This document shows positions 36,104 through 62,434 of a DNA stretch of 64,000 bases, piece after piece. Position 1 is the stretch's first letter. Each line of letters starts with the position of its first letter. The notes beneath the pieces were generated by a model. The model saw only the letters and a program-made list of their open reading frames with translations. It ran no database searches and was not told the origin of the DNA. The DNA comes from Martelella mediterranea DSM 17316 (GTDB lineage Bacteria > Pseudomonadota > Alphaproteobacteria > Rhizobiales > Rhizobiaceae): the NCBI RefSeq assembly GCF_002043005.1, contig NZ_CP020330.1, positions 310,001 to 374,000 on the forward strand, written 5' to 3'. Made by a program: the position numbers and the translations under genes.

Positions 36104-36369
36104 CAGCTTTCTCCCTTCATGGCAGGCCCAAAGCACTCCGGCCCGCTGCCGCCGCGCGGAGACTTGACCGCTGCAAGCGCGATCAGAGCGATTTTCATGC
36201 GGGCGGGTTTCATGTTGGTGCTGTCCGTTTCAGCTTGCGATCATCGTGGAACAGGTCGTCACATTAATGCCGAAAATTTATTATGTCGACAAAAAAAATT
36301 TAAAGCGCAAGATGGATTGTGTGCATGGAGTGTTGCATATTGACCAAAATTACCGGAGAGCGGAGCATT
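36104..36369. promoter_or_regulatory. Divergent control region with a GTCGAC palindrome
   Basis: A 266-base intergenic region between the leftward GAF/CUT2/hydantoinase operon and the rightward GntR gene. TGTCGACA at 36284-36291 sits in an AT-rich stretch 79 bases before the GntR start. GTCGAC fits the general GntR half-site pattern GTM-KAC with no spacer, so autoregulation and control of both directions are plausible. Confidence 0.6.
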
Positions 36370-37092
36370 ATGGCCAAGACATCGTTGGAAAGCAGCGGAC
36401 TCCAGAGCCAGCAGGTCAGGCGCGGCGGCGGCGTGGCGCACGTCTATGAAACCCTGCGCAACGAAATCATCGAGCTGAAGCTCGCGCCCGGCAGCCCGAT
36501 CGACGAGACCGAGCTTTCCGAGCGCTTTGCGATGTCGCGCACGCCCATCCGGGAGGCGCTCGTCCGGCTTGCGGCGGAGGGGCTGATCACCGCGCTGACC
36601 AATCGCACGACGATCGTTTCCAACATCGATTTCGTCCAGCTCGGCGCATTTTTCGATGCCCTGACGCTGATGTACCGCGTTACCGCGCGGCTTGCGGCGA
36701 TCCATTACAACGAGGCCGATCTGGCCGGGATACGCGCCCACCAGAGGCGCTTTGCCGAGGCGGTCGAGGCTCGCGACGTGCTTGGCATGATCGCGGCCAA
36801 CCGCGATTTTCACATCGCCATCGCCGAGGCCGGCCGCAACAAATACTATACCGACCTGTTCCGGCGCCTGCTCGATGACGGACGCCGGATTCTTCGCCTT
36901 TACTATCGCTCCTATGACGACGACCTGCCGCGCCAGTATGTGGCCGAGCACGAACACATCGTCAGCGCCATGATCGCGCGTGATCAAGACGCATGCGACC
37001 GGCTTGCTACGGCGCATGCCGACCAGATCGTGCGTCAAATCCGGGCCTATATCTCTGCGGATTCCCGCAGCGTTTCCTCAATCGCGCTCTAG
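36370..37092 (+). CDS. GntR-family regulator (FCD type) next to hydroxyproline genes
   Basis: 240 residues. The winged helix is at about 22-80 (VYETLRNEIIELKLAPGSPI; ELSERFAMSRTPIREALVRLAAEGLI), followed by a helical FCD domain (FDALTLMYRVTARLAA; RRLLDDGRRILRLYYRSYDDDLPRQYVAEHEHI). It shares long identical blocks with the GntR at 61571-62287, including RRILRLYY and DxLPRQYV. ATG 36370 follows GGAGAGCGGAG. The next genes encode hydroxyproline catabolism, so it probably senses hydroxyproline or a derivative. GTCGAC palindromes lie before it and after it (37148). Confidence 0.88.
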   Translation: MAKTSLESSGLQSQQVRRGGGVAHVYETLRNEIIELKLAPGSPIDETELSERFAMSRTPIREALVRLAAEGLITALTNRTTIVSNIDFVQLGAFFDALTLMYRVTARLAAIHYNEADLAGIRAHQRRFAEAVEARDVLGMIAANRDFHIAIAEAGRNKYYTDLFRRLLDDGRRILRLYYRSYDDDLPRQYVAEHEHIVSAMIARDQDACDRLATAHADQIVRQIRAYISADSRSVSSIAL

Positions 37093-37147
37093 ATTTCACG
37101 GGTTTCCCGAAAGGCGGAGAGGTGCGCTTCGCTTTTAAGTATTTTAT

Positions 37148-37157
37148 TTGTCGACAA
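37148..37157. promoter_or_regulatory. GntR-type palindrome before the hydroxyproline deaminase gene
   Basis: TTGTCGACAA, a perfect 10-base palindrome in AT-rich DNA (37148-37157), 116 bases before the start of the DHDPS-family gene and 55 bases after the GntR stop. It is the same core as the sites at 46834 and 62415. Confidence 0.65.
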
Positions 37158-37273
37158 GATAGATTATCGGTGGTACTGAAATTGCAACCGACCGGCTCCG
37201 GGCCGCAGCGCCAGAGATTGCCAGCAGATTGCCCCGCCGAGACCAATTCCTTGTGCCTATGAAAGGACCCCAG

Positions 37274-38206
37274 ATGAGCGACACGATTTTCACCGGCTGC
37301 ATTCCGGCTTTGATGACCCCCTGCAAGGCTGACCGCACGCCCGACTTCGCCGCGCTTGCGCGCAAGGGCCGGGAACTGGTCGAGGCGGGCATGTCGGCTG
37401 TCGTCTATTGCGGATCGATGGGCGACTGGCCGCTTCTGACCGACGAGCAGCGCATGCAGGGCGTCGAGGCGCTGGTCGAGGCCGGCGTTCCGGTGATCGT
37501 GGGCACCGGCGCGATCAACACCAAATCCGCCGTGGCGATCACGGCGCATGCCGCCCGCGTCGGCGCCGCTGGCCTGATGGTCATTCCGCGCGTTCTCTCG
37601 CGCGGCAGCTCTGTCTCGGCGCAGAAGGCGCATTTCTCGGCTATCCTCGAAGCCGCGAACGGCCTGCCGGCCGTCATCTACAACAGCCCGCATTACGGCT
37701 TTGAAACCCGCGCCGACCTGTTCTTCGCCCTGCGCGCCGACTATCCCAACCTGATCGGCTTCAAGGAATTCGGCGGCGCGGCCTCCCTCTCCTACGCAGC
37801 CGAGCACATCACCTCCGGCAATGACGATCTGACCCTGATGGTCGGCGTCGATACCCAGGTCTTCCACGGCTTCGTCAAATGCGGCGCCACCGGCGCGATC
37901 ACCGGCATCGGCAACGCGCTCCCGAAGGAGGTCCTGCATCTCGTTTCGCTCTGCAAGACCGCCGCCGAGGGCGACAGCGAGGCTCGCGTCAAGGCGCGCG
38001 AACTCGAGGAAGCCCTGATGGTGCTGTCGAAATTCGACGAGGGCGTCGATCTCGTGCTGTTCTACAAATATTTGATGGTGCTGAATGGCGACGCGGAATA
38101 TACCCTGCACTTCAACGAGACCGACGCCCTGACGGCACCGCAGCAGGCCTTTGTCGAAGAACAGTACCGGCAGTTCAAGACCTGGTACGCCAACTGGGCG
38201 GCCTGA
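37274..38206 (+). CDS. Probable 1-pyrroline-4-hydroxy-2-carboxylate deaminase (DHDPS/NAL family)
   Basis: A 310-residue TIM-barrel class I aldolase-like enzyme. The Schiff-base Lys164 is in LIGFKEFGG and the supporting Tyr136 in AVIYNSPHYGF. The motif CGSMGDWPLLTDEQR replaces the GTTGE of true dihydrodipicolinate synthases, as in the branch that deaminates the pyrroline from hydroxyproline to 2-oxoglutarate semialdehyde. It sits between a GntR regulator and 4-hydroxyproline epimerase, which strongly supports this role over lysine synthesis. GAAAGGA precedes ATG 37274; an ATG five codons earlier is less well placed. Confidence 0.85.
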   Translation: MSDTIFTGCIPALMTPCKADRTPDFAALARKGRELVEAGMSAVVYCGSMGDWPLLTDEQRMQGVEALVEAGVPVIVGTGAINTKSAVAITAHAARVGAAGLMVIPRVLSRGSSVSAQKAHFSAILEAANGLPAVIYNSPHYGFETRADLFFALRADYPNLIGFKEFGGAASLSYAAEHITSGNDDLTLMVGVDTQVFHGFVKCGATGAITGIGNALPKEVLHLVSLCKTAAEGDSEARVKARELEEALMVLSKFDEGVDLVLFYKYLMVLNGDAEYTLHFNETDALTAPQQAFVEEQYRQFKTWYANWAA

Positions 38207-38240: not shown

Positions 38241-39173
38241 ATGCATGTGATTGACAGCCACACCGCGGGCGAGCCGACGCGGGTCATCCTCGACGGCTTT
38301 CCCGATCTCGGTTCGGGCCCGCTTTCCGAACGCGCGGCGCTGCTTGCGACGCGCTTTTACGACGACTACCGCGCCGTGGTGCTGGAACCGCGCGGCCAGG
38401 TCGCCATGGTCGGCGCGCTGCTGGTGCCGCCGGTGGACCCGACCTGCGTCACCGGCGTCATCTATTTCGATGTCGGCGCGGTTCTCGGCATGTGCGGTCA
38501 TGGCACGATTGGCCTCGCCGTCACGCTTTACCACATGGGCCGGATCGGCACGGGGCTGCATCGCATCGAAACGCCCGCCGGCGTCGTCACCGTCGATGTG
38601 CAGGATGAAAGCACGGTCACCGTCACCAATATCGAAAGCCGCCGGGTTGCGGTCGGCGTTACGGTCGAGGTGCCCGAATTCGGCCCCATGACCGGCGATG
38701 TCGCCTATGGCGGCAACTGGTTTTTCCTGGTCGATCCGAGCCCGATCCCGGTGATCCCGGAGAATATCCGCCAGCTTACCGATCTCGCCGTCGCCACCCG
38801 GACCGCGCTCAATGCACAGAAGATCGGCGGCGAGAACGGCGAACCGGTCGACCATGTCATCTTTTATGGTCCTGCCGGCGATGCGGCGGCGCACAGCCGC
38901 AATTTCGTGCTCTGCCCGGACGACGCCTATGACCGCTCCCCCTGCGGGACCGGCTGTTCGGCGCGGCTCGCCTGCCTTGCCGCAGCCGGTCAACTGGGAG
39001 AAGGACAGGAAATCGTGCAGGAGAGCATTATCGGCTCCACCTATCGGCTTTCCTACAGGGCCGGACACAAGGGCGGCGTGATCCCCTCGATCACCGGCCA
39101 AGCCTATGTCATGTCGGTGGCCGAACTGGTATTCCACCCCAACGACCCCTTCCGCAACGGCATCATCCTCTGA
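38241..39173 (+). CDS. 4-hydroxyproline 2-epimerase (proline racemase family)
   Basis: 310 residues. Both catalytic cysteines are present: Cys85 in GMCGHGTIG and Cys235 in DRSPCGTGCSA. Having Cys, not Thr or Ser, at the first site separates epimerases from trans-3-hydroxyproline dehydratases of the same family. The start IDSHTAGEPTRVI and HSRNFVLCPDDAYDRSPCG match hydroxyproline epimerases better than proline racemases. It converts trans-4-hydroxy-L-proline to cis-4-hydroxy-D-proline, the substrate of the dehydrogenase at 60253. ATG 38241 follows AGGGAG; the upstream frame overlaps the deaminase gene. Confidence 0.9.
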   Translation: MHVIDSHTAGEPTRVILDGFPDLGSGPLSERAALLATRFYDDYRAVVLEPRGQVAMVGALLVPPVDPTCVTGVIYFDVGAVLGMCGHGTIGLAVTLYHMGRIGTGLHRIETPAGVVTVDVQDESTVTVTNIESRRVAVGVTVEVPEFGPMTGDVAYGGNWFFLVDPSPIPVIPENIRQLTDLAVATRTALNAQKIGGENGEPVDHVIFYGPAGDAAAHSRNFVLCPDDAYDRSPCGTGCSARLACLAAAGQLGEGQEIVQESIIGSTYRLSYRAGHKGGVIPSITGQAYVMSVAELVFHPNDPFRNGIIL

Positions 39174-39271: not shown

Positions 39272-40858
39272 CTATTTCGTCACCAGCCGGTAATAGACGA
39301 AGTCAGAGGTCGCGCCGTTGACGTAACCTTCGACGTCATCCTGCATGGCAACCTCGTAGGCGGCCTGGAACATGATGATGATCGGCGAGGTTTCCTGCAC
39401 CTTCTTCTGCAGGTCGACATACATCTCAAGACGCTTGTCCGGATCGGATTCCGAAAGCGCGGCCATGGTTTCCTTGTTCATGTCATCCGGCACGGCCCAG
39501 GCATTCCGCCAGGTGGTGGTTGCCTGATAATTGTCGTCGGAATTATCGGCATTGTAGGCGAAGGCCTTGGCGTTCGAATGCGGGTCCATGAAGTCTGGCC
39601 CCCAGTAGAGCAGCATCGCCTCATGGGTGCGGTCGCGATACTTGGTGATGACCTGCGCGCCGGTTCCCGGAATGATGTCGAAATTGATGCCGGCTTCGGC
39701 GAAGCTTGCCTGCAGCGACTGCGCCATGTCGGTGAACGGCGCCGAATTGATGACGTCGAGCGTCACGTTGATCGGGGTTTCGACGCCCGCATCGGCGAGG
39801 ATCTGCTTGGCCTTCTCGGGGTCGTAGGTATAGGGGTTTTCATCATAGGAACCCGGAAAACCCTTCGGCCAGAACGCCTGATGGATTTCCATCTGGCCCT
39901 TTAGGAAGCTGTCGGTCATGCCCTCGTAATTGACGAGATAGCGCGCGGCTTCCCAGACGGCCTCGGGCTGGAGCGCCTCGTCCTTCTGGTTGAAGGACAG
40001 GAAGTGGACGGCGGCCTGCGGGAAGGTCTCGACCTTGATGCCGTCGCCTTCGATGGAGGCGATCTGGTCCGGCGTCAGGTTGCGGGCAAGGTCGACATCG
40101 CCGGAGGTCAGCAGCAATTGCTGCGTCGCCGATTCGGCGACATGACGGATGATGACCGATTCCATCGCCGGCGCGCCCTTGAAGTAGTCCGGGTTGGCGG
40201 TCAGCCGGATCAGTTCTGCGGGACGGTAATCGGCAAGGCTGAAGGGGCCGGAGCCGGCGGTATTGGAATTCAGCCAGGCATTGCCCATGTCGCCGTCGGT
40301 CTCGTGCGCCATCACTTCCTTTTCGTCGACGATCGAGGCCGGACGGGAGGCGAGCACGTTGAGCACGAAGGCGGAAGAGAAATCACCATCATATTTGATC
40401 GTGACGGTGTTGCCGTCGACGGTCACCATGTCGTCGACATTCTCCGGCGTCCAGCCGAGCTGGGCAAGGATGAAGGCGGGCGTCAGGTTCAGCTTGATGA
40501 CGCGGCCGAGCGAAAACGCCACATCCTCGGCACGGACAGGATTGCCGGAGGAGAAGGTGGCATCGTCGCGCATCGTGAAGGTGATGGTCTTGGCCTCATC
40601 ATCGGCCGTCCATTCGCTGGCAAGGCCGGCCGAAAGCACGGTCGGGTCCTCGGCGTCATACTGCACCAGCCGGTCATAGGTGTTGGTGACGAGCTCGCCG
40701 GATGTGAATTCATAGGCCTGGGCCGGGTCGATGGCGACGATATCGTCGATGTTCTGAGCGACGACCAGCATGTTTGCGGGCGTGTCGGCCATGGCAGACC
40801 CCGCGCCCATCGGCAGGGTCAGCGCTGCCGCGAGCAATGCGGCTTTGAAGAGTTTCAT
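39272..40858 (-). CDS. Dipeptide/oligopeptide-type ABC substrate-binding protein (family 5)
   Basis: 528 residues. The signal peptide is KLFKAALLAAALTLPMGAGSAMAD; the mature protein starts TPANMLVVAQNIDDIVAIDPAQAYEFTS, a DppA-like family 5 binder, with the usual SSGNPVRAEDVAFSL segment. It is transcribed after the XRE-cupin regulator, 2 bases apart, and divergently from the dppBCDF-like genes at 41.6-45.2 kb with which it must work. GAGGAG lies before ATG 40858. Peptide or nickel ligands are typical of the family; the setting favours hydroxyproline-containing peptides or hydroxyproline itself. Confidence 0.88.
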   Translation of the reverse strand: MKLFKAALLAAALTLPMGAGSAMADTPANMLVVAQNIDDIVAIDPAQAYEFTSGELVTNTYDRLVQYDAEDPTVLSAGLASEWTADDEAKTITFTMRDDATFSSGNPVRAEDVAFSLGRVIKLNLTPAFILAQLGWTPENVDDMVTVDGNTVTIKYDGDFSSAFVLNVLASRPASIVDEKEVMAHETDGDMGNAWLNSNTAGSGPFSLADYRPAELIRLTANPDYFKGAPAMESVIIRHVAESATQQLLLTSGDVDLARNLTPDQIASIEGDGIKVETFPQAAVHFLSFNQKDEALQPEAVWEAARYLVNYEGMTDSFLKGQMEIHQAFWPKGFPGSYDENPYTYDPEKAKQILADAGVETPINVTLDVINSAPFTDMAQSLQASFAEAGINFDIIPGTGAQVITKYRDRTHEAMLLYWGPDFMDPHSNAKAFAYNADNSDDNYQATTTWRNAWAVPDDMNKETMAALSESDPDKRLEMYVDLQKKVQETSPIIIMFQAAYEVAMQDDVEGYVNGATSDFVYYRLVTK

Positions 40859-40860
40859 GG

Positions 40861-41499
40861 TCAGTTCTCCTCTTTCTGGTTCGGTTTCGCCGTCTGTGCG
40901 GCTGGTTTCGGGGCGGCATTGGATCGGAAGAGCGCCAGCGTTCCCGCCCAGAGAAGCTTTGCCGGCCTGTCCGTATGGTTCGACCATGCATGCGGCTGGC
41001 TGCCGCGGAAATGCAGGCTGTCGCCCGCCGACATGATCATTTCGTCGTTGTCGACGCGCTGGGTGATCGATCCCTCCAGCACGTAGATGATCTCTTCGCC
41101 TTCATGGCTGACCACTTCCGAGCGATAGCCCGGCGGCACGGTCATCAGAAAGGAGGAGAGTGTATTGCCGGGGAAATCGGCGCCGAGGCGCTCATAGGTC
41201 ACCGAGGAGCCGTCGACGGAAAACTTGGTGCGTTCGCCTTCCCGCGTCAGCGCATCACGCGGCGCCGGAGTGGCTATGAAATAGTCGATGCCGACCTTCA
41301 GCGCCCGGGCGATCTGCGCCAGCGTGCCGAGCGAGGGCACGGCCTGGTCGCGTTCGACCTGGCTCAGATAGCCGACGGAGACGCCCGATGCCTGGCTGAG
41401 CGCCGTCAGCGTCATCTGCATCTGCTGCCGGCGGGCCCGGATGATCGATCCGACCCGGGGTTGTGTCGTGTCCCGCATGGCGGCGAGCGTTTCGCGCAT
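40861..41499 (-). CDS. XRE-family regulator with C-terminal cupin domain
   Basis: 212 residues. The HTH_3 domain at about 15-72 contains LTALSQASGVSVGYLSQVERDQAVPSLGTLAQIARAL; a linker is followed by a cupin_2 barrel (about 115-190) with SHEGEEIIYVLEGSITQRV and HFRGSQPHAWSN. Such proteins often sense small metabolites and control amino-acid or polyamine use. It forms an operon with the peptide-binding protein and faces the permease operon, so it likely controls both from the 41500-41622 region. Confidence 0.9.
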   Translation of the reverse strand: MRETLAAMRDTTQPRVGSIIRARRQQMQMTLTALSQASGVSVGYLSQVERDQAVPSLGTLAQIARALKVGIDYFIATPAPRDALTREGERTKFSVDGSSVTYERLGADFPGNTLSSFLMTVPPGYRSEVVSHEGEEIIYVLEGSITQRVDNDEMIMSAGDSLHFRGSQPHAWSNHTDRPAKLLWAGTLALFRSNAAPKPAAQTAKPNQKEEN

Positions 41500-41509
41500 A
41501 TTCCATCCC

Positions 41510-41555
41510 GATCAAAATTTTTTTGATCTAAGCAAAAATACTTGTATTATCCAAG
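41510..41555. promoter_or_regulatory. Two dyad symmetries in the XRE/dpp divergent promoter
   Basis: GATCAAAA (41510-41517) and TTTTGATC (41521-41528) form an inverted repeat with a 3-base spacer, just upstream of the XRE start. A second, imperfect dyad is CTTG-N7-CAAG at 41541-41555. Either could be the operator of the XRE-cupin protein. Confidence 0.55.
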
Positions 41556-41622
41556 CGAAAATATTCATCGCGCCGCGCCTTGCGGCGGCAGAGCCTCCCG
41601 CCAGACAAGGGAAAGACCCGAA

Positions 41623-42708
41623 TTGAGTTTTGAGCCAGCCGGCCCGACAAACGAAACGATGCCCGTGGCCGGACCGTCGCGCATCAGGCGCGGCGGACGC
41701 ATGCTGGGCGCCATCGCCTCGGTGCTGGTCACCATCGCGTTCACCTTTCTCGGCCTCCTCGCCATCACCTTCTTCATCGGCCGGGTGATCCCGATCGATC
41801 CGGTGCTTGCGGTGGTCGGCGATCGCGCGACGCCGGAAGTCTACGAGGCCGCCCGCGTGCAGATGGGGCTCGACCAGCCGCTGCCGGTGCAGTTCTTTCA
41901 TTATGTCGTCAACGTGCTTTCCGGCGATTTCGGCCGCTCGGTATCCACCGGAAGGCTGGTCTCCGACGATCTCGCCCGCTTCTTCCCGGCGACGCTGGAA
42001 ATGGCGACGATCGGCATTATTATCGGCGTTCTGCTCGGTGTACCCATGGGGGTTTATGCCGCGGCCCATCGGGGCCGCCCGCTCGATCAGGTCATCCGCG
42101 TCATCGGCATGCTCGGCTATTCGGTGCCCGCCTTCTGGCTCGGCCTCGTCGGGTTAGCGCTGTTTTATGCCCGCTTCGGCCTCGTCGGCGGGCCGGGGCG
42201 GCTCGATATCTTCTATGACGGGCTGGTGCCGCCAGTGACCGGGCTCATTCTGGTGGACAGCCTGATCGCCGGCGAAACCGACATCTTCTTCAACGCCATC
42301 TCGCATATCATCCTGCCGGCCTCGGTGCTGGGCTTCTTCAGCCTCGCCTATATCGCCCGCATGACCCGCTCCTTCATGCTCGACCAGCTCGGCCAGGATT
42401 TCGTCACCACAGCGCGGGTCAAGGGCGTTGCCGAATGGCTGGTGATCTGGCGTCATGCCTTCCGTCCGATCCTGGTGCCGCTGATCACCGTGATCGGCCT
42501 GTCCTTTGCCGGCCTGCTCGAGGGCTCGGTGATGATCGAGACGGTGTTTTCCTGGCCCGGCATCGGCAATTACCTGACGACCGCGCTGCTGAACGCCGAC
42601 ATGAATGCCGTTCTCGGCGCGACGCTGGTGGTCGGCGCGGTTTTCATCCTGATCAACAAACTCTCCGACGTGCTCTATCGCGTCATCGACCCGAGGGCCC
42701 GCCGATGA
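41623..42708 (+). CDS. Dipeptide-type ABC permease (DppB-like)
   Basis: About 361 residues. After a cytoplasmic N-terminal tail it has the first membrane segment GAIASVLVTIAFTFLGLLAITFFIG, then the periplasmic motif MGLDQPLPVQFFHYVVNVLSGDFGRSV, and the late motif VMIETVFSWPGIGNYLTTALLNADMNAVLGATLV of DppB proteins. The start is uncertain: TTG 41623 has AAGGGA well placed upstream, whereas ATG 41659 and ATG 41701 lack one. It overlaps dppC by four bases. Confidence 0.87.
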   Translation: MSFEPAGPTNETMPVAGPSRIRRGGRMLGAIASVLVTIAFTFLGLLAITFFIGRVIPIDPVLAVVGDRATPEVYEAARVQMGLDQPLPVQFFHYVVNVLSGDFGRSVSTGRLVSDDLARFFPATLEMATIGIIIGVLLGVPMGVYAAAHRGRPLDQVIRVIGMLGYSVPAFWLGLVGLALFYARFGLVGGPGRLDIFYDGLVPPVTGLILVDSLIAGETDIFFNAISHIILPASVLGFFSLAYIARMTRSFMLDQLGQDFVTTARVKGVAEWLVIWRHAFRPILVPLITVIGLSFAGLLEGSVMIETVFSWPGIGNYLTTALLNADMNAVLGATLVVGAVFILINKLSDVLYRVIDPRARR

Positions 42709-43607
42709 CAACACGCGACTGGCTCCTGGCCGATTCTCCCACATCGCTGCTGCAGGCGCGGCTTGGCGCATCCTATCGCGCCGGTCTTGCGCTGCTTGGC
42801 AATCCGCTCGCCGCCATCGGGCTCGCGATCGTGTTGCTGCTGATCGTCATGGCTGTCTTCGCCCCGTGGCTGGCGCCCTATTCGCCCTTCGGCCAGTCGC
42901 TTGGCGAACGTCTGCAGCCGCCGAGCCTGCAACACTGGATGGGCACGGACGAACTCGGCCGCGACATCCTCTCCCGCGTTATCTACGGCGCGCGGATCAC
43001 GCTGATGATCGTGGCTCTGGTTGCGATCATCTCCGCGCCGATCGGCCTTCTCGCCGGCGCGGTCTCGGCCTATTTCGGCGGCTGGACCGACCGGATCATG
43101 ATGGGCATTACCGATGTATTCCTGTCGATGCCGAAGCTGATCCTCGCGCTTGCCTTTGTCGCCGCCCTCGGGCCGGGCATCGAGAACGCGATCATCGCGA
43201 TCGCGATCACCGCCTGGCCGGCCTATGCCCGCATCGCCCGCGCCGAGACCATGACCTTCCGCAATTCCGAATTCATCGATGCCGTCCGGATGCAGGGCGC
43301 ATCCTCGTCGCGGATCATCTTCCGCCACATCCTGCCGCTCTGCACCTCCTCGATGATCATCCGCGTCACCCTCGACATGGCCGGCATCATCCTGACGGCG
43401 GCGGGCCTCGGCTTCATCGGGCTTGGCGCACAGCCGCCGCTTCCTGAATGGGGCGCGATGATCTCGCGCGGGCGCGCCTTCATCCTGGATCAGTGGTGGG
43501 TGGCGACTATGCCGGGCTTTGCGATCCTGGCCGTCAGCCTCGGCTTCTGCTTCCTCGGCGACGGCTTGCGCGACGTGCTCGATCCGAAACAGGGGGCGGG
43601 ACGATGA
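42705..43607 (+). CDS. Dipeptide-type ABC permease (DppC-like)
   Basis: 300 residues, with the motif APYSPFGQSLGERLQPPSLQHWMGTDELGRDILSRVIYGARITL (split by the usual periplasmic segment) typical of DppC/OppC. The EAA region is FIDAVRMQGASSSRIIFRHILPL, and the C-terminus is FLGDGLRDVLDPK. It overlaps both neighbours by four bases. Confidence 0.9.
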   Translation: MTTRDWLLADSPTSLLQARLGASYRAGLALLGNPLAAIGLAIVLLLIVMAVFAPWLAPYSPFGQSLGERLQPPSLQHWMGTDELGRDILSRVIYGARITLMIVALVAIISAPIGLLAGAVSAYFGGWTDRIMMGITDVFLSMPKLILALAFVAALGPGIENAIIAIAITAWPAYARIARAETMTFRNSEFIDAVRMQGASSSRIIFRHILPLCTSSMIIRVTLDMAGIILTAAGLGFIGLGAQPPLPEWGAMISRGRAFILDQWWVATMPGFAILAVSLGFCFLGDGLRDVLDPKQGAGR

Positions 43608-44428
43608 CGGCATTGCTCGATATCGAAAACCTCCGCGTTTCCTTCCCGACCCATAAGGGCCGTGTCGAGGTGGTGAAGGGGCTCTCCTTCACGCTTGGTC
43701 GCGAGCGGCTTGGCATCGTCGGCGAATCCGGCTCCGGCAAATCGATGACCGGCCGCTCGATCCTGAGACTGATCGCCCCGCCGGGCCGCGTCACAGCCGA
43801 CCGGCTCGATTTCGACGGCATCGACATTCTGGCGCAATCGCCCCGGCAGATGCGGAAAATCCGGGGCGCGCGGATCTCGATGGTGATGCAGGACCCGAAA
43901 TTCTCGCTCAACCCGGTGCTGACCATCGGCGCCCAGATCGGCGAAGCGCTGGCCGCGCATTTCTCGCTGTCGCGTCACGCAATCCGCGAACGCAGCATCG
44001 CCATGCTGGAATCGGTGCGGATCGACGATCCCGAACGGGTGATGGGCCTTTATCCGCACGAGGTCTCCGGCGGCATGGGCCAGCGGGTGATGATCGCGAT
44101 GATGCTGATCCCCGAACCGGACCTCTTGATTGCCGACGAGCCGACCTCCGCACTCGACGTTTCGGTGCAGGGCCAGGTGCTCGACATCATGGACAGGCTG
44201 GTCCGCGACAAGGGCATGGGGCTGATCTTCATCAGCCACGATCTCGATCTCGTCTCACGCTATTGCGACCGCATTCTGGTGATGCGCTCCGGCGAGATCG
44301 TCGAGGAATGCGTGGCCTCCGAGCTTTCGCAGGCGCGCCATCCCTATACGCGCGGGCTCTTGGCGGCGATGCCGCGCATGGACGAGGACCGCGATTTCCT
44401 GCCGGTGCTGGAACGGGGAGACACGTGA
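43604..44428 (+). CDS. Dipeptide-type ABC ATP-binding protein (DppD-like)
   Basis: 274 residues. Walker A is GESGSGKS near 40-47, the signature VSGGMGQRV, and Walker B LLIADEPTSALDVSVQGQ. It ends TRGLLAAMPRMDED, the oligopeptide-transporter C-terminal segment, but lacks the long cysteine-containing tail that binds an iron-sulfur cluster in many DppD proteins. One-base overlap with the next ATPase gene. Confidence 0.9.
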   Translation: MTALLDIENLRVSFPTHKGRVEVVKGLSFTLGRERLGIVGESGSGKSMTGRSILRLIAPPGRVTADRLDFDGIDILAQSPRQMRKIRGARISMVMQDPKFSLNPVLTIGAQIGEALAAHFSLSRHAIRERSIAMLESVRIDDPERVMGLYPHEVSGGMGQRVMIAMMLIPEPDLLIADEPTSALDVSVQGQVLDIMDRLVRDKGMGLIFISHDLDLVSRYCDRILVMRSGEIVEECVASELSQARHPYTRGLLAAMPRMDEDRDFLPVLERGDT

Positions 44429-45174
44429 TGAGCGCGCTTTCCCTGAACAATGTCGATATTTCCTATGGCGACACCAAGGTCGTCTTCGGTGCTGGCCTCG
44501 CCGTTGCCGAGGGCGAGAGTTTCGCGCTTGTCGGCGAGAGCGGATCGGGCAAATCGACCATCCTGCGCGCCATCGCCGGGCTTGCGCCGGACTGGACCGG
44601 CGATATCGCCGTTCTAGGCAAACCGCGCGGCAAGAAACTCGACAAGGATTTCGCCCGCATTTGCCAGATGGTGTTCCAGGACCCCTACGGCTCGATCCAT
44701 CCGCGCAAGACCATAGACGCCACGCTTTCCGAACCGCTTGCCATCCACGGGGTCGGCAACCGTTCCGAACGGGTGGAGGCGATGCTGGTCGCCGTCGGCC
44801 TCGACCGCCGTTTCCGGTTCCGCTTTCCGCACCAGCTTTCCGGCGGTCAGCGCCAGCGCGTGGCGATTGCCCGCGCCCTGATGCTGGAACCGAAAATCCT
44901 GCTTCTGGACGAACCGACATCGGCGCTCGACGTCTCGGTACAGGCTGAAATCCTCAACCTGCTGAAGCGTCTGCGCGCCGAGCAGAACCTCACCTTCCTG
45001 CTCGTCACCCACAACCTGCCGGTGGTCTCGTTTCTCTGCGACCGGCTGGCGGTGATGCGGCGCGGACAGATCGTCGAGATCGCCGGCGTCGACAAGCTCA
45101 AGGCCGGCACGCTTACCCACCCCTACGCCCGCGAGCTCTATGCGGCGAGCGGCGGACATACCGAAGGACACTGA
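44428..45174 (+). CDS. Dipeptide-type ABC ATP-binding protein (DppF-like)
   Basis: 248 residues. Walker A is GESGSGKST, the signature is LSGGQRQRV, Walker B ILLLDEPTSALDVSVQAE, with VFQDPYGSIHPRKTID characteristic of DppF/OppF. It is shorter than the usual 320-330 residues because the C-terminal oligopeptide extension is trimmed, ending at THPYARELYAASGG. It partners the DppD-like subunit. Confidence 0.9.
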   Translation: MSALSLNNVDISYGDTKVVFGAGLAVAEGESFALVGESGSGKSTILRAIAGLAPDWTGDIAVLGKPRGKKLDKDFARICQMVFQDPYGSIHPRKTIDATLSEPLAIHGVGNRSERVEAMLVAVGLDRRFRFRFPHQLSGGQRQRVAIARALMLEPKILLLDEPTSALDVSVQAEILNLLKRLRAEQNLTFLLVTHNLPVVSFLCDRLAVMRRGQIVEIAGVDKLKAGTLTHPYARELYAASGGHTEGH

Positions 45175-45175
45175 C

Positions 45176-45664
45176 ATGACCACCGAAACGGCGCTCGCCC
45201 GCTTTGCCACCGACATCGCGGCCGCCACCACAGCCGACGCCGCCTTCGAAGCACTTCAGGCGCTGACCGAGGCCACCGTCGGCGTGAAGCTGTTCACGGT
45301 GATGACGGTGGACATGGAGGCGGGACTTGCGCGCCGGGCCTATACCAGCGACCCCAAATCCTATCCGGCGACCGGCACCAAGCCGATCCACCGCGACGCC
45401 TGGTTCGACATCGTCCATATCGAACGCCGCCCCTTCGTCGCCAACACGATCGAGGACATCGCCAAGGTGTTCTCGGACTATGAGTTGATCGACTCGCTCG
45501 GCTGCCAGTCGGTGGTCAACCTGCCGGTCATTCTCGGCGGCGAACTGGTCGCCACGGTCAATATGCTGCACGAGACGGATCATTATACGCCGGAGCGCGT
45601 TGCCGCGATCGTGCGCGACCTCACCATCCCCGCTCAGCTCAGCCTGAGCGTTGCCCGAGGTTGA
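45176..45664 (+). CDS. Small GAF-domain protein, paralogue of the one at 35591
   Basis: 162 residues, a single GAF domain: FEALQALTEATVGVKLFTVMTVDM, then FVANTIEDIAKVFSDYELIDSLGCQSVVNLPVILGGELVATVNMLHETDHYTPERV. The same strand order and closing motif occur in the protein at 35591-36103 (IDEIAEVFFDWEKI; GTVNMLGKRGHFTPETV). It starts 1 base after the DppF stop and so is co-translated with the peptide transporter. No catalytic or output domain is present. Confidence 0.78.
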   Translation: MTTETALARFATDIAAATTADAAFEALQALTEATVGVKLFTVMTVDMEAGLARRAYTSDPKSYPATGTKPIHRDAWFDIVHIERRPFVANTIEDIAKVFSDYELIDSLGCQSVVNLPVILGGELVATVNMLHETDHYTPERVAAIVRDLTIPAQLSLSVARG

Positions 45665-46767: not shown

Positions 46768-46785
46768 TGATAAAAGCTTTTATCA
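46768..46785. promoter_or_regulatory. Perfect 18-base palindrome, candidate LacI operator
   Basis: TGATAAAAGCTTTTATCA at 46768-46785 is fully palindromic, lies 16 bases before the LacI gene start, and sits in the divergent promoter. Length and position fit a LacI-family autoregulatory operator. Confidence 0.65.
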
Positions 46786-56265: not shown

Positions 56266-57789
56266 TTACCGGCGCAAAGAGTCGGGAAGCAGGTCCGCCG
56301 GCATGTCCTGATAGGAGATCGGACGGAGGAAGCGGTCGATCGCGAGCGTGCCGACCGAGGTTGAGCGCACGTCCGAGGTCGCCGGATAGGGCCCGCCATG
56401 GACCATGGCAGGCGACACCTCGACGCCGGTGCCAAACCCGTTGACGAGCAGACGGCCGGCCAGCATTTCGAGCTTCGGCATCAGTTTCGCCGCCGCCGGA
56501 TAGTCCGCTTCGTCGATGTGAAGCGCGACGGTCAACTGGCCTTCCAGACCATCGACCACGGTTTCGAGCTCCGCCATATCGCGGCATCTGACGATCAGGC
56601 CCGCACCGCCAAAGACTTCGTCATGCAGGCTCTTGTCCTTGAGGAACGAGGCGGCCGTCGTCTCAAAAAGCGCGGCCTGGCCGTGAAACTCGTCGCCCTC
56701 CTGCCCTTCGGCAAGCTGAGTGACATCACTGTGGCTGACCAGTTTTGCCACGCCGTCACGATAGGCCTTGCAGATGCCGGCGGTCAGCATCGTCTGGGCC
56801 GGCACGGCCTTCAGCGCCTCGACGGCGCTCGCCTTGAAGGCTTCGAGCCCCTCGCCTTCGACGGCCAGAATCAGCCCGGGATTGGTGCAGAACTGGCCGG
56901 CGCCGAGCGTCAGCGATGCCGCGAACGCCGCGCCGATCTTGCCGCCGCGCGCCTTCAGCGCTTCTGGAAACAAGAGGACCGGGTTGATCGCGCTCATTTC
57001 GGCATAGACCGGGATCGGCATGGCCCGTTTCGCGGCGATATCCACCAGCGCCAGACCGCCCCGGCGCGAGCCGGTGAAGCCGACCGCGCGGATCAGCGGA
57101 TGAGCCACCAGCGCGCCGCCGATCTCATAGCCGGTGTCATGCAGCATCGAAAACGTGCCCGCCGGCATGCCGCAATCGATCACGGCCTGCTGCAGCGCGC
57201 GGGCAACCAGTTCCGAGGTGCCGGGATGGGCCGGATGGGCCTTGACCACGACCGGGCATCCGGCCGCCAGCGCCGAGGCGGTATCGCCACCGGCCACCGA
57301 AAACGCCAGCGGGAAATTCGATGCCCCGAAAACGGCAACCGGGCCGAGGCCGACCTTGCGCAGCCGGAGATCGGGCTTCGGCGGCGTGCGGGCGGCATCG
57401 GCGGGATCGAAACGCAGGTCCTGAAACGCGCCTTCGCGCACCACACCGGCGAAGAGACGCAACTGGTTGACGGTGCGCATGCGCTCGCCTTCAAGGCGCC
57501 CGCGCGGCAGCCCGCTTTCGGCCATGGCGCGCTCGATCAGCGGCTCGCCGATGGCCAGGATATTTGCGGCCGCCTTTTCAAGAAACGCCGCCCGGTCTTC
57601 CAGCGCCGTCTCGCGATAGGCGAAGAAAGCCTGCCAGGTAAGTTGCGCCGCCTCGTCCAGATCGGTAACGCTCGCGCCGCCGAACGCGCCCTCCAGCGCC
57701 TTTCCGGTGGCCGCTTCCACAGCCGTCAGCGTGCCGTTTTCGCCCATGCGGGTCTCGTTGCCGATCAGCAATTCGCCGGTGATCTTCAT
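56266..57789 (-). CDS. 2-oxoglutarate semialdehyde dehydrogenase (aldehyde dehydrogenase family)
   Basis: 507 residues. Catalytic Cys301 lies in [12 protein letters not shown], general-base Glu264 in [11 protein letters not shown] and the oxyanion Asn158 in GASNFPLAF; Lys183 in [10 protein letters not shown] binds the cofactor. The YAEMS and FCTNPGL forms are those of ketoglutarate-semialdehyde dehydrogenases of the hydroxyproline type. It oxidises 2-oxoglutarate semialdehyde to 2-oxoglutarate, the last step of the pathway; L-arabinose oxidation also ends in this aldehyde. ATG 57789 follows GAGGATG; the longer frame is rejected. It is third in the M24, Ldh2, ALDH operon. Confidence 0.88.
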
Positions 57790-57811: not shown

Positions 57812-58852
57812 TCAAATCGTCTTGTTTTGATGTTTTGCGGCACGCAACCGCAACTCGTCGAGCACGTTCTTGCGCACCGGCATAACGCCGGCCCTGGTGT
57901 TGCGGGCCCGCGCCCGGTAGCGTCTGGCAGAGGGAAGGCGCGCGCCCTGCCCTTCGATCGCGTCAAACAGCGTCTCGCCGCGCTTCAGATTGTCACGTGC
58001 CGCCTGCCCCATGAAGGAGGCCGGATCGAGCGCGATGATCAGTTCACCGTGAAACGGCGTGACCTTGGCGCCATCGTCGAAAGCCATGGATTCGGCGCTG
58101 GTGAGATCGCCGATCAGCGGCCCGGCCAAGAGTTCGATCATCGTCGAAAGCGCCGAGCCCTTGTGGGCGCCGAAGGTGAGCATCGCTCCGTCCACCGCTT
58201 TGTCCGGATCGGTCGTGGGCTTGCCATCGGCATTGATCGCGGTTCCTTCCGGCAGAGGCGTCTTCATGCGGCGGTGCAGTTCGATATCGCCGCGGGCGAT
58301 CGCCGAGGTGGCGAAGTCGAACACGAAGGGATGTTTGCCGGGGCGCGGCCAGGCGAAGGCAAACGGATTGGTGCCGAACACCGGCCTGCTGCCGCCCGCC
58401 GGCGCGACCCATGCATGACTGACCGTGACGGCGATGGCGACAAGGCCCTGATCGGCGATCCTTTCCACCTCCGGCCAGAGTGCGGAGAAATGAAAGCAAT
58501 TGTTGATCGCAAGCGCTGCGAGCCCGCAATGCCGCGCCTTTTCGGCGATAACGGGAAGCCCGGCCTCAAAGGCTGACAGCGAAACGCCTCTGCGGGCATC
58601 GACGCGGACGATCGCCGGCGCGCGGTCCTCGACGACCGGCGTCGCGGCCGGATCGACCTTGCCGCGCTCGATCAGCTCCAGGCAACTGATCAGCCGGTAG
58701 AGCCCGTGCGAATGGCATTCGTCCATCTGCGCGCGCACGACGCAATCGGTGATCGTGCGGGCATGGTCTTTGGAATAGCCGGCCGCCGAAAGCAGGCCCT
58801 CGCCCAGCGCCCGCGCCTCATCGATCGCAATCGTTTCGAAATCGTCGCTCAT
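57812..58852 (-). CDS. Malate/L-lactate dehydrogenase (Ldh2) family oxidoreductase
   Basis: 346 residues of the Ldh2/MDH2/DpkA family of NAD(P)H enzymes, unlike classical malate dehydrogenases. Visible motifs are [17 protein letters not shown] near residue 45, [13 protein letters not shown] and [18 protein letters not shown]. The family includes delta-1-pyrroline-2-carboxylate reductases, which act on proline-type imines, so here a pyrroline reductase is a good guess. ATG 58852 follows AAGGGAGAC. It lies 22 bases before the ALDH gene. Confidence 0.85.
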
Positions 58853-58949: not shown

Positions 58950-60083
58950 TCAGGCGAAGGGCTCGGTCGGGCCCTTGCCGGGCGTGGTGAACCAGACCGG
59001 CCCGTCTTCACCCATGTGAATGATGTCCTCCAGCCGGACGCCGAATTTTTCGGGCACGACGATCATCGGTTCGTTGGAAAAGCACATGCCGGGCAGAAGC
59101 GGCGCGGCATTGCCCCGCACGATGAACGGCGCTTCGTGAATATCCATGCCGAGCCCGTGCCCCGCTCTGTGCGGCAGGCCGGGCAGGCGATAATCCGGGC
59201 CGAGGCCATGAGCGGCGATCACGCGGCGGGCCGCATCGTCGAGGGTTTCGGCCGCAACGCCCGGCTTCGCCGCGTCGAACACGGCCTGCTGCGCCTCGCG
59301 TTCGATCATCCAGATCCGCGAAAATTCTGCCGAAGGCTCCGCCTTCACATAGGTGCGCGTCATATCCGACTGGTAACCGCCGACAATCGTGCCGGTGTCG
59401 ACGAGAATGATATCGCCCTCGGCATAGGTCTGGTCGTCATCGACGCCATGCGGCAGCGATGTCGCCGCGCCGAAGGAGCAGATCGCGAAGGTGCTGCCCG
59501 AGCCGCTGAGCGCGCGGTGGGTCTCGTCAATGAAGCGCACGACCTCGGAAGCGCGGATGCCCGGCTCGATCAGCGCGTGAACGCGCTTGTGCACCTCAAG
59601 AGTGGCATCCATCGCATACTGCATCAGCGCGATCTCGGCGGGCGATTTCACCGCTCGGAGCGAAGAGATCATCGGCCCGCCGTCAACGAGCCGCTCCGGC
59701 GCGAGCTGCCGGACAAGCGCCGAATAGATGGCGAACGGCAGCGCGTCGTCGAGCGCCAGCGTCCGGCCCTGGCCAAGCAGCTTCGCCGTCAGCGCCGCGG
59801 GGTCTTCGTGCTCGTCCCACGCCGCGATGTCGCCGTCGAGGCGATCGAGCGTTTCGATCTTCGAGACTTCGAAGGCGGGCGCGATATAGGTCAGGCTGTC
59901 GGCGGTGATCAGCGCCCCGACCAGACGCTCGCTCTGGTGCCATACAAGCCCGGTGAAGTAGGCAAGGCTGGTGGTCGAGCCCAGCAGCACGGCATCGGCG
60001 CCGGCGGCCTGCATGGCCGCGCGCAGCCATGCGATCCGGCCCTTGCGTTCGTCTTTGCTGATCGGTTCAGGGCGGTTGGTCAT
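58950..60083 (-). CDS. M24-family peptidase (Xaa-Pro dipeptidase-like)
   Basis: 377 residues. A creatinase-type N-terminal domain is followed by the pita-bread catalytic domain. The metal ligands are visible: two Asp in ILVDTGTIVGGYQSDMTRTY, His in GHGLGMDIHE, Glu in FSNEPMIVV and Glu in GVRLEDIIHM. Such enzymes cleave peptides before proline or hydroxyproline, or hydrolyse creatine-like compounds. No signal peptide, so it acts on imported dipeptides. It heads a three-gene operon with a GTCGAC palindrome 84 bases upstream. Confidence 0.87.
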   Translation of the reverse strand: MTNRPEPISKDERKGRIAWLRAAMQAAGADAVLLGSTTSLAYFTGLVWHQSERLVGALITADSLTYIAPAFEVSKIETLDRLDGDIAAWDEHEDPAALTAKLLGQGRTLALDDALPFAIYSALVRQLAPERLVDGGPMISSLRAVKSPAEIALMQYAMDATLEVHKRVHALIEPGIRASEVVRFIDETHRALSGSGSTFAICSFGAATSLPHGVDDDQTYAEGDIILVDTGTIVGGYQSDMTRTYVKAEPSAEFSRIWMIEREAQQAVFDAAKPGVAAETLDDAARRVIAAHGLGPDYRLPGLPHRAGHGLGMDIHEAPFIVRGNAAPLLPGMCFSNEPMIVVPEKFGVRLEDIIHMGEDGPVWFTTPGKGPTEPFA

Positions 60084-60166
60084 CGCAGCGGTCTCTCCGT
60101 CTTCACTCGATCCAAGATCGAGATTTTTTCATTCACCAAATCCGCCTACCATATTTGTCGTCAGTT

Positions 60167-60174
60167 TGTCGACA
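60167..60174. promoter_or_regulatory. GTCGAC palindrome in front of the M24 operon
   Basis: TGTCGACA (60167-60174) lies in the 169-base gap between the dehydrogenase and M24 genes. A related half-match TTTGTCGTCA lies just beside it (60154-60163), giving two TTTGTCG steps about one helical turn apart. Confidence 0.6.
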
Positions 60175-60252
60175 GTGCGATCGGCGAGCTTTTGCAATCA
60201 AGAAAACCGTACCGGCCCCCAGCAGACGCCGGCCCCGGAACGACCGCGCGCC

Positions 60253-61512
60253 CTACCGGCCGGAAAACCGGTCGAAACGCAGGTTTTCGAGGTTCACGGA
60301 TGGCTTCTGCTGGCCGGCCAGTTCCGCGATCAGCCGACCCGTGGCGGCCGACTGGGTCAATCCCAGATGCCCGTGGCCGAAAGCGTAGAGCACGTTCGGC
60401 GCGGCCTTCGAGCGGTCGATCACCGGCAGGCAGTCGGGCATGGAGGGGCGGAACCCCATCCACCGCTCGCCGCCCTCGGTCTCAAGGCCGGGCAGGAACC
60501 GTTTGGCAAGTGTCAACAGCGCCTCGGCGCGCTTGAAATTGGCTGGCAGGTCGAGGCCGCCGAACTCCACCGCTCCGCCGACGCGGATACCCGCCTTCAG
60601 CGGCGTGACGACAAAGGAATGATCGTTGAAATAAAGCTGGCGCTTCAGCGGGAAGGCCGTTGCCGGCAAGGTGGTGTTGTAGCCGCGCTCGGTATCGAGC
60701 GGCACCGCCTCGCCCAGGCTTTTCGCAAGCGTTTTGGACCACGCGCCGCAGGCAACCACGACGGTGCGCGCCTCGAGGACGCTTCCATCGGCAAGGCGGA
60801 TGCGCGCGCCCGCATCGGTCGGTTCGATGGCGGCGGCTTCACCGATGGTGATCGTGGCGCCGTCCTCCCGCAGGCTTTCGGCGAGCGCACGGGTAAAGCC
60901 GGCCGGATCGGAAACCTGCAGCCCGTCCTCGCTGTAGATCGCATGTTCGAACTGCGTCGCGAGACCGGGCTGAAGCCTCGCGATCTCGCTGCGGCCAACG
61001 CGGTGGAAATCGAAGCCGGCTTCGCGCTTTCTTGCCCAGCCGGGTGCTGCGGCGGCAAAACTCTTTTCGCTGTCGTAGAGGTCGAGCGTGCCGGTATTGA
61101 CGATAAAGGAAGCCAGCCGTGCGTCCTTGCGGACCGTTTCATATTCGGCGACCGCCAGCCGCATCATCGCCGCCTGAACCTTGAGCCCGCGCTCGAAACT
61201 GGCCCTGGAGCTCGCCTGCCAGAAATGCCAGAGCCAGGGTGCCAGCCTTGCCGCATAGGCCGGGCGAATGGCAAGCGGCCCCAGCGGACCGAGCAGCCAT
61301 CCGGGCGCTTTCCAGGTAATGCCAGGCGCGGGGATCGGCACGATCTCGGGGAAGGCGAGAATGCCGGCATTGCCGGCGCTGGCTCCCGCCGCGATCGCGC
61401 TGCGCTCCAGGATCGTGACCCTTCGGCCGGCCTCCACGAGGTAGCGCGCGGCCATGCAGCCGATAATCCCGCCGCCGATCACGACGACGTCTGCTTCGGA
61501 TTGGTCTTTCAT
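60253..61512 (-). CDS. FAD-dependent D-amino-acid (cis-4-hydroxy-D-proline) dehydrogenase
   Basis: 419 residues of the DAO/DadA family. FAD dinucleotide motif VVVIGGGIIGCMAA at about 9-22, then ILERSAIAAGASAGNAGIL, and the C-terminal YAFGHGHLGLTQSAATGRL segment typical of DadA. Given the epimerase and deaminase in the window it most likely oxidises cis-4-hydroxy-D-proline to 1-pyrroline-4-hydroxy-2-carboxylate. ATG 61512 is preferred over a start 16 codons earlier. It follows the GntR gene by 58 bases, probably co-transcribed. Confidence 0.87.
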   Translation of the reverse strand: MKDQSEADVVVIGGGIIGCMAARYLVEAGRRVTILERSAIAAGASAGNAGILAFPEIVPIPAPGITWKAPGWLLGPLGPLAIRPAYAARLAPWLWHFWQASSRASFERGLKVQAAMMRLAVAEYETVRKDARLASFIVNTGTLDLYDSEKSFAAAAPGWARKREAGFDFHRVGRSEIARLQPGLATQFEHAIYSEDGLQVSDPAGFTRALAESLREDGATITIGEAAAIEPTDAGARIRLADGSVLEARTVVVACGAWSKTLAKSLGEAVPLDTERGYNTTLPATAFPLKRQLYFNDHSFVVTPLKAGIRVGGAVEFGGLDLPANFKRAEALLTLAKRFLPGLETEGGERWMGFRPSMPDCLPVIDRSKAAPNVLYAFGHGHLGLTQSAATGRLIAELAGQQKPSVNLENLRFDRFSGR

Positions 61513-61570
61513 CAAGTCCTCATGTTGTGCGGGCAGGTGGCGGCAATGCGCCATAATCATGAACCATGGC

Positions 61571-62287
61571 TCACCCTAGCGGCAGCGCGCGCGCCTGATC
61601 GGCTTCCCGCGCCAGATATTCCTGGATCTGGCGCACGATCTGCCCGGCATGGGCGACTGCCAGCCGGTCGGCCCTGTCGACATCCCCGGCTTCGATCGCC
61701 GCGATGATATCCTCGTGCTCGTTCACATATTGACGCGGAAGCTGGTCCTCGAAGGTGGAATAGTAAAGCCTCAGGATACGGCGTCCCTCATCCAGCAGCC
61801 GGGAGAAGAAACCGGTGTAATAGGCATTGCCGGCCAGCTCGGCGATGGCGACGTGAAACTCGCGGTTGGCCTCGATCATGGCAAACGCGTCCTGCGCTTC
61901 CACGGCGGCGACGAACTCGTCCTGTCGGCTGCGGATGTTCGCCATCATCGCCCGCTCATGCGGCGCGCGCGCGGCCGCGCCTCTGGTGCTGATCCGGTAC
62001 ATCAGCGTCAGGGCTTCGAAGTAATGCGGCATGGCTGCGAAGTTGATGGCGGAAACGATGGTGTTGCGGTTGGGCAGCGTGGTCACCAGCGTATCGCTTG
62101 CAAGCCTGAGCAAGGCCTCGCGCACCGGCGTGCGCGACATGCCGAAGCGCTCCGACAGCCTGACCTCGTCGAGCGGGCTGCCCGGCGTCAGCTCCATCGC
62201 CAGAATTTCGCGGCGCAGCGTCTCGTAGACCTTCTGGGTGCCCGACCCGCGCGTTTTCGTTTTTGCCGCCTCTACCGCTGCCGCCAT
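61571..62287 (-). CDS. GntR-family regulator (FCD type), paralogue of the one at 36370
   Basis: 238 residues. Winged helix VYETLRREILAMELTPGSPLDEVRLSERFGMSRTPVREALLRL, then an FCD domain with FEALTLMYRIST, FHVAIAELAGNAYYTGFF and DEGRRILRLYYSTFEDQLPRQYVNEHEDI. The FCD domain shares many blocks with the GntR at 36370, so the two probably sense related ligands and bind related operators. ATG 62287 follows GAGG; a GTG twelve codons earlier is an alternative. It probably controls itself, the dehydrogenase, and the M24 operon. Confidence 0.9.
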   Translation of the reverse strand: MAAAVEAAKTKTRGSGTQKVYETLRREILAMELTPGSPLDEVRLSERFGMSRTPVREALLRLASDTLVTTLPNRNTIVSAINFAAMPHYFEALTLMYRISTRGAAARAPHERAMMANIRSRQDEFVAAVEAQDAFAMIEANREFHVAIAELAGNAYYTGFFSRLLDEGRRILRLYYSTFEDQLPRQYVNEHEDIIAAIEAGDVDRADRLAVAHAGQIVRQIQEYLAREADQARALPLG

Positions 62288-62413
62288 TACTGCCTCATTT
62301 CTGGTTCTCGGGCTTCCACACAATCCCGCAGATACTGTATGCTATCCGTTCAGCCGGCTTGATCCGACCAGGCCGGCGACGTCCGGGCTTTGAGCATACG
62401 TCGCCGCCGGCAG

Positions 62414-62434
62414 GTTGTCGACAATTTGTGTTCA
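62414..62434. promoter_or_regulatory. GTCGAC site with flanks identical to 46824-46844 (opposite strand)
   Basis: Contains TTGTCGACAA at 62415-62424 with flanks; the reverse complement of the full 21 bases equals 46824-46844. It lies 128 bases upstream of the GntR start and is the likely autoregulatory operator. Confidence 0.75.

Follow-up and report, generated by a model that had tools for sequence, protein, structure and literature searches.

The stretch analysed here, hereafter the window, comprises 64,000 nt of Martelella mediterranea DSM 17316 (NZ_CP020330.1, 310,001-374,000), and its island at 36104..62434 carries a gene for a GH127 glycoside hydrolase among genes for the catabolism of 4-hydroxyproline (Hyp). 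The parts were identified by gene calling and by Pfam and NCBIfam profile scans, with Pfam run on 40 of the 56 called genes. A complete Hyp gene set lies at 36-39 kb and 56-62 kb, and in between is an operon with a LacI-family regulator, a sugar ATP-binding cassette (ABC) importer, GH127 and a MalK-type ATPase. The gene order is GntR1, HypD, epimerase; SBP_5, XRE-cupin, DppBCDF, GAF; LacI; substrate-binding protein (SBP), two permeases, GH127, MalK; AraC, a major facilitator superfamily (MFS) gene; HypH, HypS, M24, HypO and GntR2 (Table 1). The Hyp genes and the GH127 operon share a putative HypR-type site, and parts of the GH127-Hyp partnership, with the same control site, recur in related bacteria.

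Table 1 Features of the island and the GH51-type gene in window coordinates; percentages are tblastn identities to Sinorhizobium meliloti genes.
Feature	Position	Strand	Basis or remark
GH51-type gene	22005-23513		Pfam match for C-terminal domain only
Putative HypR-type site ATGTCGACAA	36283..36292	.	upstream of GntR1; one mismatch
GntR/FCD regulator 1 (GntR1), HypR-like	36370..37092	+	Pfam FCD and GntR; 60% to GntR gene of the hyp locus
Putative HypR-type site TTGTCGACAA	37148..37157	.	upstream of HypD
HypD-like deaminase, DHDPS family	37274..38206 (37274 likely start)	+	489 bits to 2hmc; 72%
4-Hydroxyproline 2-epimerase	38241..39173	+	NCBIfam NF052296, 550 bits, cut-off 450
Local dipeptide-importer module	39272..45664	SBP_5 (-), XRE-cupin regulator (-), DppBCDF (+), GAF protein (+)	Pfam; importer genes 39272-45174
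LacI-family regulator adjoining sugar operon	45708..46751	-	corrected start; LacI helix-turn-helix detected
LacI-like palindrome TGATAAAAGCTTTTATCA	46768..46785	.	upstream of GH127 operon
Putative HypR-type site TTGTCGACAA	46834..46843	.	upstream of GH127 operon
Sugar ABC substrate-binding protein (SBP1)	46910..48154	+	Pfam SBP_bac_1; signal peptide judged by eye from N-terminus
Two ABC permeases	48351..50050	+	Pfam BPD_transp_1
GH127 beta-L-arabinofuranosidase (predicted)	50074..51993	+	PF07944/PF20736/PF20737; ATG 50074 likely, gene caller gave 50110
MalK-type ABC ATPase	52003..53103	+	Pfam
HypH-like semialdehyde dehydrogenase (aldehyde dehydrogenase, ALDH)	56266..57789	-	best chain 3v4c; 51%
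HypS-like Ldh_2-family dehydrogenase	57812..58852	-	Pfam; 54%
M24 Xaa-Pro-type peptidase	58950..60083	-	Pfam; by eye without signal peptide
Putative HypR-type site TTGTCGACAG	60166..60175	.	M24/DAO gap, before M24; one mismatch
HypO-like FAD dehydrogenase, DAO family	60253..61512	-	PF01266; 49%
GntR/FCD regulator 2 (GntR2), HypR-like	61571..62287	-	Pfam; 57% to GntR gene of the hyp locus
Putative HypR-type site TTGTCGACAA	62415..62424	.	upstream of GntR2

Hyp catabolic genes and the GH127 enzyme

A preliminary description of the region, made from the sequence alone, had named an epimerase, a DAO dehydrogenase, a deaminase, a semialdehyde dehydrogenase, a dipeptide-type importer, an M24 peptidase and GH127, every one of which is there; its list lacked the Ldh_2-family gene and the two HypR-like GntR genes. 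The GH51 gene that it placed nearby is separated from GH127 by about 27 kb, has other sugar-ABC genes as its neighbours and falls outside the island; it was rejected as an island member.

As judged from sequence, the S. meliloti-type catabolic set of epimerase, D-Hyp dehydrogenase, deaminase and semialdehyde dehydrogenase genes is complete. It was compared by tblastn with 49 kb of pSymB, an unannotated record which was taken as the hyp locus by its gene content and on which the names HypR, HypD, HypS, HypH, HypMNPQ, HypO and HypRE (PMC5343134, PMC6608401) were placed here; the locus itself goes back to White 2012 as cited by PMC5343134. The window epimerase belongs to a different subgroup from that of S. 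meliloti (35%) and is still a 4-Hyp epimerase by NCBIfam, and the HypO-like dehydrogenase scores 195 bits against the NCBIfam D-amino acid dehydrogenase, under the cut-off of 383.

The three GH127 domains all exceed the Pfam cut-off (catalytic 333, middle 75 and C-terminal 81 bits), and the protein, in which no signal peptide was recognized by eye, aligns with 4qjy at 612 bits and with HypBA1 at 389 bits. The zinc and cysteine residues of HypBA1, as the preliminary description had noted, are retained, with C415/C417/C418 corresponding to C391/C393/C394, E338/C340 to E325/C327 and E322 to E309 (counted by eye on the alignment, in 627-residue numbering); the HypBA1 residues other than C415 and C417 presumably have zinc-ligand and acid/base roles. 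C415 of HypBA1, and C417 as its nucleophile, are described in PMC10728902.

GH127 neighbourhoods in related genomes

The scan with the window GH127 gave 120 relatives in named genomes, the best 80 of which (48-97% identity) were retained as focal loci and read with up to 10 kb per side, while 34 GH127-paralogue loci and 14 arbitrary stretches served as controls (stretches of 19.9 kb). The 80 named loci are the basis of the focal counts; an 86-locus set has three repeats (L178, L179 and L182, equal to L055, L063 and L072), and the recount from 86 to 80 shifts the focal counts and leaves the contrast with the controls as it was. The counts vary with the sequence thresholds chosen and are affected by contig ends that truncate some loci, six being less than 15 kb long.

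GH127 is accompanied by LacI in 61 of the 80 loci, by the SBP in 64, by the permeases in 67 and 67 and by MalK in 65. Clustering of open reading frames revealed further recurrent neighbours, namely an S33 peptidase (prolyl-aminopeptidase-like; best chain 8jgn, AT3g61540), M24 and aminopeptidase-P-like M24 peptidases, GntR, a Dpp-type importer and DHDPS-family, DAO and proline-racemase-family proteins. When the eight proteins of the window Hyp locus, named beforehand, were used as seeds (45% identity, about 10 kb), they were matched at 36/80 focal vs 0/34 paralogue loci (Fisher p 1.3e-7, kinship ignored) and, outside Martelella, at 33/74 GH127 loci; this is the comparison of neighbourhoods that the preliminary description had proposed. 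For the families defined post hoc, any except HypH, the figures are 54/80 focal, 1/34 paralogue and 0/14 arbitrary (Fisher p 1.9e-11, likewise with kinship ignored). At 45% identity the individual counts (focal/paralogue/arbitrary) are M24 28/0/0, S33 31/0/0, aminopeptidase P 10/0/0, SBP_5 14/0/0, DppDF 12/0/0, GntR 20/0/0, racemase family 9/1/0, HypD 5/0/0, DAO 6/1/0, DHDPS c11 10/1/0 and HypH 2/0/0, the linkage being made up mostly of the M24 peptidase and the HypR-like GntR. Chance adjacency of GH127 and Hyp genes is rejected by both kinds of control. The lone exception among the paralogue loci is L177, where DAO, racemase and DHDPS genes occur; its GH127, which sits on a long branch, aligns from residue 2 like the focal type.

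The linked loci are spread over seven named families, and a quick tree of GH127 requires no fewer than 5 to 18 changes of state for the linked genes; with 120 rows, including the three repeats, the fewest changes were 10 for M24, 18 for S33, 8 for racemase, 10 for Dpp and 15 for any of them, numbers inflated by early contig ends. The Marinibacterium locus L065 has a run on one strand in the order GntR-HypD-epimerase-DAO-SBP-permeases-GH127-MalK-S33. Kaistia L070 and L072 have GH127-DAO-epimerase, the L070 epimerase scoring 559 bits (cut-off 376), and Devosia L055 and L082 have Dpp-DAO-GntR-aminopeptidase P-GH127-racemase family, the L055 racemase-family protein being nearest to trans-3-Hyp dehydratase, under the cut-off. 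On pRL10 of the laboratory strain Rhizobium johnstonii 3841 (L204, 16494-27107) an annotated GH127 operon precedes genes for DHDPS, GntR, an alpha/beta hydrolase and an Xaa-Pro peptidase.

Within Martelella the locus is modular. Among 13 genomes, window-type GH127 is found in eight and the epimerase orthologue in nine; both are present in four, in all of which they lie no more than 12 kb apart. M24 is found in 12 genomes and has a racemase-family gene within 20 kb in 11, though the gene in question shares only 35-37% identity with the window epimerase in G003, G005 and G007. In G004 a single stretch holds HypD, epimerase, HypH, HypS, M24, HypO and GntR2 with no GH127, and in G006 the window-type importer module, again without GH127, sits between epimerase and HypH. 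In G001 and G010 it is the GH127 operon that separates epimerase from HypH, and another importer block (SBP_5, DppDF, C, B, aminopeptidase P) separates M24 from HypO. This block is missing from the window island, and a copy with an exact TTGTCGACAA site lies on contig C2 of the same genome (G000:C2:162049-170076; L218:10050-18077), flanked by fragments of M24 (residues 1-73) and HypO (357-419), so on sequence grounds it looks to have been relocated from the island, where G001 and G010 still carry it. The S33-type peptidase was rejected as a general partner of GH127 in Martelella: it is present in 13/13 genomes and adjoins GH127 in G003 only.

Two flanking regions may be mentioned. The AraC-family regulator and NepI-like MFS gene (53133-55402) between MalK and HypH, present in the window and G001 and absent in G010, are probably unrelated to the rest. 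The stretch 28142-36103 encodes HyuA/HyuB-type proteins, an ABC importer of the ribose type and a protein of 170 aa that matched nothing in Pfam; it adjoins GntR1 also in G001, G002, G006, G009 and G011, where the fetched stretches end inside it.

The shared HypR-type site

Allowing one mismatch, the palindrome TTGTCGACAA matches the window 8 times vs 1.31 expected, with five matches inside the island (Table 1), so the single regulatory motif that the preliminary description had perceived is real. The exact 10-mer has 12 copies in the 5.69-Mb genome, three of them in the island, and its core TGTCGACA has 145, of which six are in the 26-kb island (one within GntR2). In S. meliloti the exact TTGTCGACAA stands before the HypR-like GntR gene and again in the GntR-HypD gap. 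A further exact copy, at G000:C1:4524600 (L214), lies where two open frames diverge, in the AT-rich interval that separates them, and may mark another regulon member or a target of another GntR protein.

In the 80 focal loci the core was counted within 350 bp upstream of each gene, where divergent genes can share one stretch. It precedes SBP1 of the GH127 operon in 55/64 loci (0.3 expected), M24 in 26/28, DHDPS c11 in 9/10, GntR2 in 12/16, GntR1 in 4/4, HypD in 4/5, S33 in 17/32, aminopeptidase P in 4/11, the racemase family in 1/9 and HypH in 0/2. The control genes inside the operon give 0/64 for MalK, 1/67 for permease-1 and 0/67 for permease-2. Among the 13 loci without sugar-ABC permeases, the core is upstream of GH127 itself in seven. 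Within 4.5 kb 5' of GH127 (strand-corrected) it is found at 67/80 focal vs 4/34 paralogue loci, and in 4/42 arbitrary 4.5-kb pieces. The dipeptide importer claimed in the preliminary description is present in the window, but the module at 39272-45664 is without the site at up to one mismatch; the core precedes, in 14/14 loci, the binding-protein gene of a different Dpp-type importer, the one copied on contig C2.

The exact TTGTCGACAA occurs in just 6/64 SBP1 upstreams, a weaker signal than the core gives. When all 1024 ten-base palindromes were scanned, two kinds of motif stood out upstream of SBP1, the LacI-like AAAACGTTTT/AAAAGCTTTT (at most one mismatch in 59/57 of 64) and CTGTCGACAG (47/64), and the exact 10-mer ranked sixth, after LacI-type palindromes, CTGTCGACAG and two others.

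Proposed pathway and comparison with known systems

At the sequence level the identities of the genes, their recurrent linkage and the shared site are established, and the island appears to take up the sugar-coated Hyp of plant cell-wall proteins and to make use of sugar and amino acid alike. We favour, with a probability of roughly 0.7, a HypR-type regulon that has been extended to an arabinoside module (GH127) and to proline peptidases and would serve the use of arabinosylated Hyp, or of Hyp peptides, from plant glycoproteins. In the scheme that follows we infer the substrate, transport, repression and induction, and which GntR protein binds. Extracellular breakdown of plant Hyp-rich glycoproteins would yield short beta-arabinofuranosides, arabinosyl-Hyp or Hyp peptides, which the sugar ABC importer (and Dpp-type importers) would carry into the cell. 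There the cytoplasmic GH127 would strip off beta-L-arabinofuranose, the M24 peptidase (elsewhere also S33-type and aminopeptidase-P-like peptidases) would liberate Hyp, and the epimerase, HypO, HypD and HypH would convert Hyp to 2-oxoglutarate. A HypR-type GntR repressor at TTGTCGACAA would govern the Hyp genes, the peptidase and the GH127 operon, and since a LacI-like site stands before that operon too, the operon may answer jointly to sugar and imino acid.

Several observations weigh against this reading. The Fisher p values take no account of kinship, and several post hoc families were picked after the focal loci had been seen, most of their seeds being focal-locus sequences. The Hyp enzymes proper (racemase family, HypD and DAO at 45%) lie near only 11/80 loci; the window seeds alone give HypD at 5, epimerase at 3 and DAO at 0 of 80; and 26/80 loci are without any linked gene within about 10 kb. 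The core is missing upstream of SBP1 in 9/64 loci, of epimerase in 3/3 and of DAO in 6/6. Five Martelella genomes (G002, G004, G006, G009, G011) possess the Hyp locus but not this GH127. Conversely, G008 (L006) has the GH127 operon and an exact site in a genome without a match to epimerase (E 1e-3) or M24 (E 1e-60); Hyp use is therefore not obligatory, and the coupling is common, not universal. The enzyme is closer to 4qjy than to HypBA1, and its sole NCBIfam match is aceric acid hydrolase, an identity ruled out by the score (379 bits vs a cut-off of 950). GH43 was not seen among the 40/56 called genes scanned by Pfam, those of the window beyond 16366; a Pfam model may not exist for GH121. The preliminary proposal of one unit is supported in part, by the recurrent neighbourhood, measured against the negative controls, and by the common site; the Hyp enzymes proper adjoin GH127 at the smaller share of loci.

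A possible variant, compatible with the extended HypR-type regulon and to be held only tentatively, is that import is mainly of peptides, with Hyp glycopeptides entering through Dpp importers and GH127 trimming sugars that block the peptidases. GH127 genes without sugar-ABC genes but with Dpp and aminopeptidase-P-like genes, found at 4/6 Devosia loci, two Cohaesibacter loci and L052, point to it, as does the core upstream of every SBP_5 gene; against this, a sugar SBP accompanies GH127 in 64/80 loci. It is unlikely that the two gene sets are neighbours only, with a GH127 operon for beta-arabinosides of pectin, arabinan or arabinogalactan under LacI control of its own sharing a catabolic hot spot with Hyp genes: the operon is self-sufficient (LacI, importer, GH127, MalK), has its LacI-like palindrome and does occur unlinked, as in the 26 loci and G008, but such an explanation is at odds with the core upstream in 55/64 loci, with the 36/80 vs 0/34 contrast and with lineages in which GH127, lacking the sugar-ABC genes, lies beside Hyp and peptide genes and, in 7/13 such loci, bears the core itself. 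That TGTCGACA belongs to another FCD-type GntR regulator, the HypR link being mere motif likeness, is improbable: FadR-subfamily regulators do have TKGT/ACMA-type sites in common (PMC6608401) and the core is frequent in the genome, but the full 10-mer is rare, with a quarter of its copies in the island, and the HypR-like gene of S. meliloti is flanked by it on either side.

Beyond the extended regulon, it is conceivable, though we would not put it higher, that plant-associated alphaproteobacteria have a two-input pathway (LacI and HypR) in which arabinosyl-Hyp or arabinosylated Hyp peptides are imported intact and deglycosylated in the cytoplasm, and sugar and imino acid are both converted to 2-oxoglutarate; the substrates may include arabinosylated peptide hormones and the extensins of infection threads and walls. 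L-arabinose (by the oxidative route) and Hyp are known to converge at 2-oxoglutarate semialdehyde, for which there are three types of dehydrogenase (PMC4495286). The extended regulon would give a testable account of how rhizobia and their relatives could feed on Hyp-rich plant wall proteins, with promoter, regulator and enzyme named.

No report joining GH127 with Hyp catabolism, or a HypR regulon with GH127, was found in the open-licence literature searched by titles and abstract openings, and 'glycos', 'arabino' and 'extensin' are nowhere in the main text of the genome-neighbourhood study of the proline racemase superfamily (PMC4113996). The island resembles the S. meliloti hyp locus in having the same enzyme set, a HypR-like regulator and TTGTCGACAA upstream of that regulator as well as in the GntR-HypD gap; the latter has the ABC importer HypMNPQ in place of sugar and Dpp importers, and the 49 kb searched gave no GH127 or M24 match. 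With Bifidobacterium longum, whose HypBA system comprises HypAA (GH43), HypBA2 (GH121), HypBA1 (GH127) and a sugar ABC importer, it shares GH127 and the importer, there for beta-arabino-oligosaccharides of Hyp-rich glycoproteins, but B. longum uses the sugar, and Hyp catabolism is not mentioned for it in the available portion of PMC7263609. In Xanthomonas euvesicatoria, XeHypBA1/BA2/AA include a GH127 acting on Hyp-linked arabinosides, and a prolyl oligopeptidase pseudogene adjoins xehypAA; XeHypBA1 is extracellular, and what is available of PMC6085000 mentions no Hyp regulon. Breakdown of extensin by GH127 has also been predicted in silico for Latescibacteria, a similar idea of Hyp-rich glycoprotein use, with no linked Hyp catabolism or regulator mentioned in the accessible part of PMC4454575. 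HypR regulons that reach upstream into protein breakdown, as in the island, include those with secreted collagenases, proline peptidases and a di/tripeptide permease in Alteromonadales (mostly Shewanella) and Aeromonas (PMC5343134) and that of Streptomyces, in which HypR represses the putative collagenase gene SCO5912 (PMC6608401). Those regulons are directed at collagen, whereas the island has a plant-glycan GH127 and a sugar ABC importer and would be their plant-side counterpart; collagenases and prolidases have already been described as members of HypR regulons, and GH127 would be the new member.

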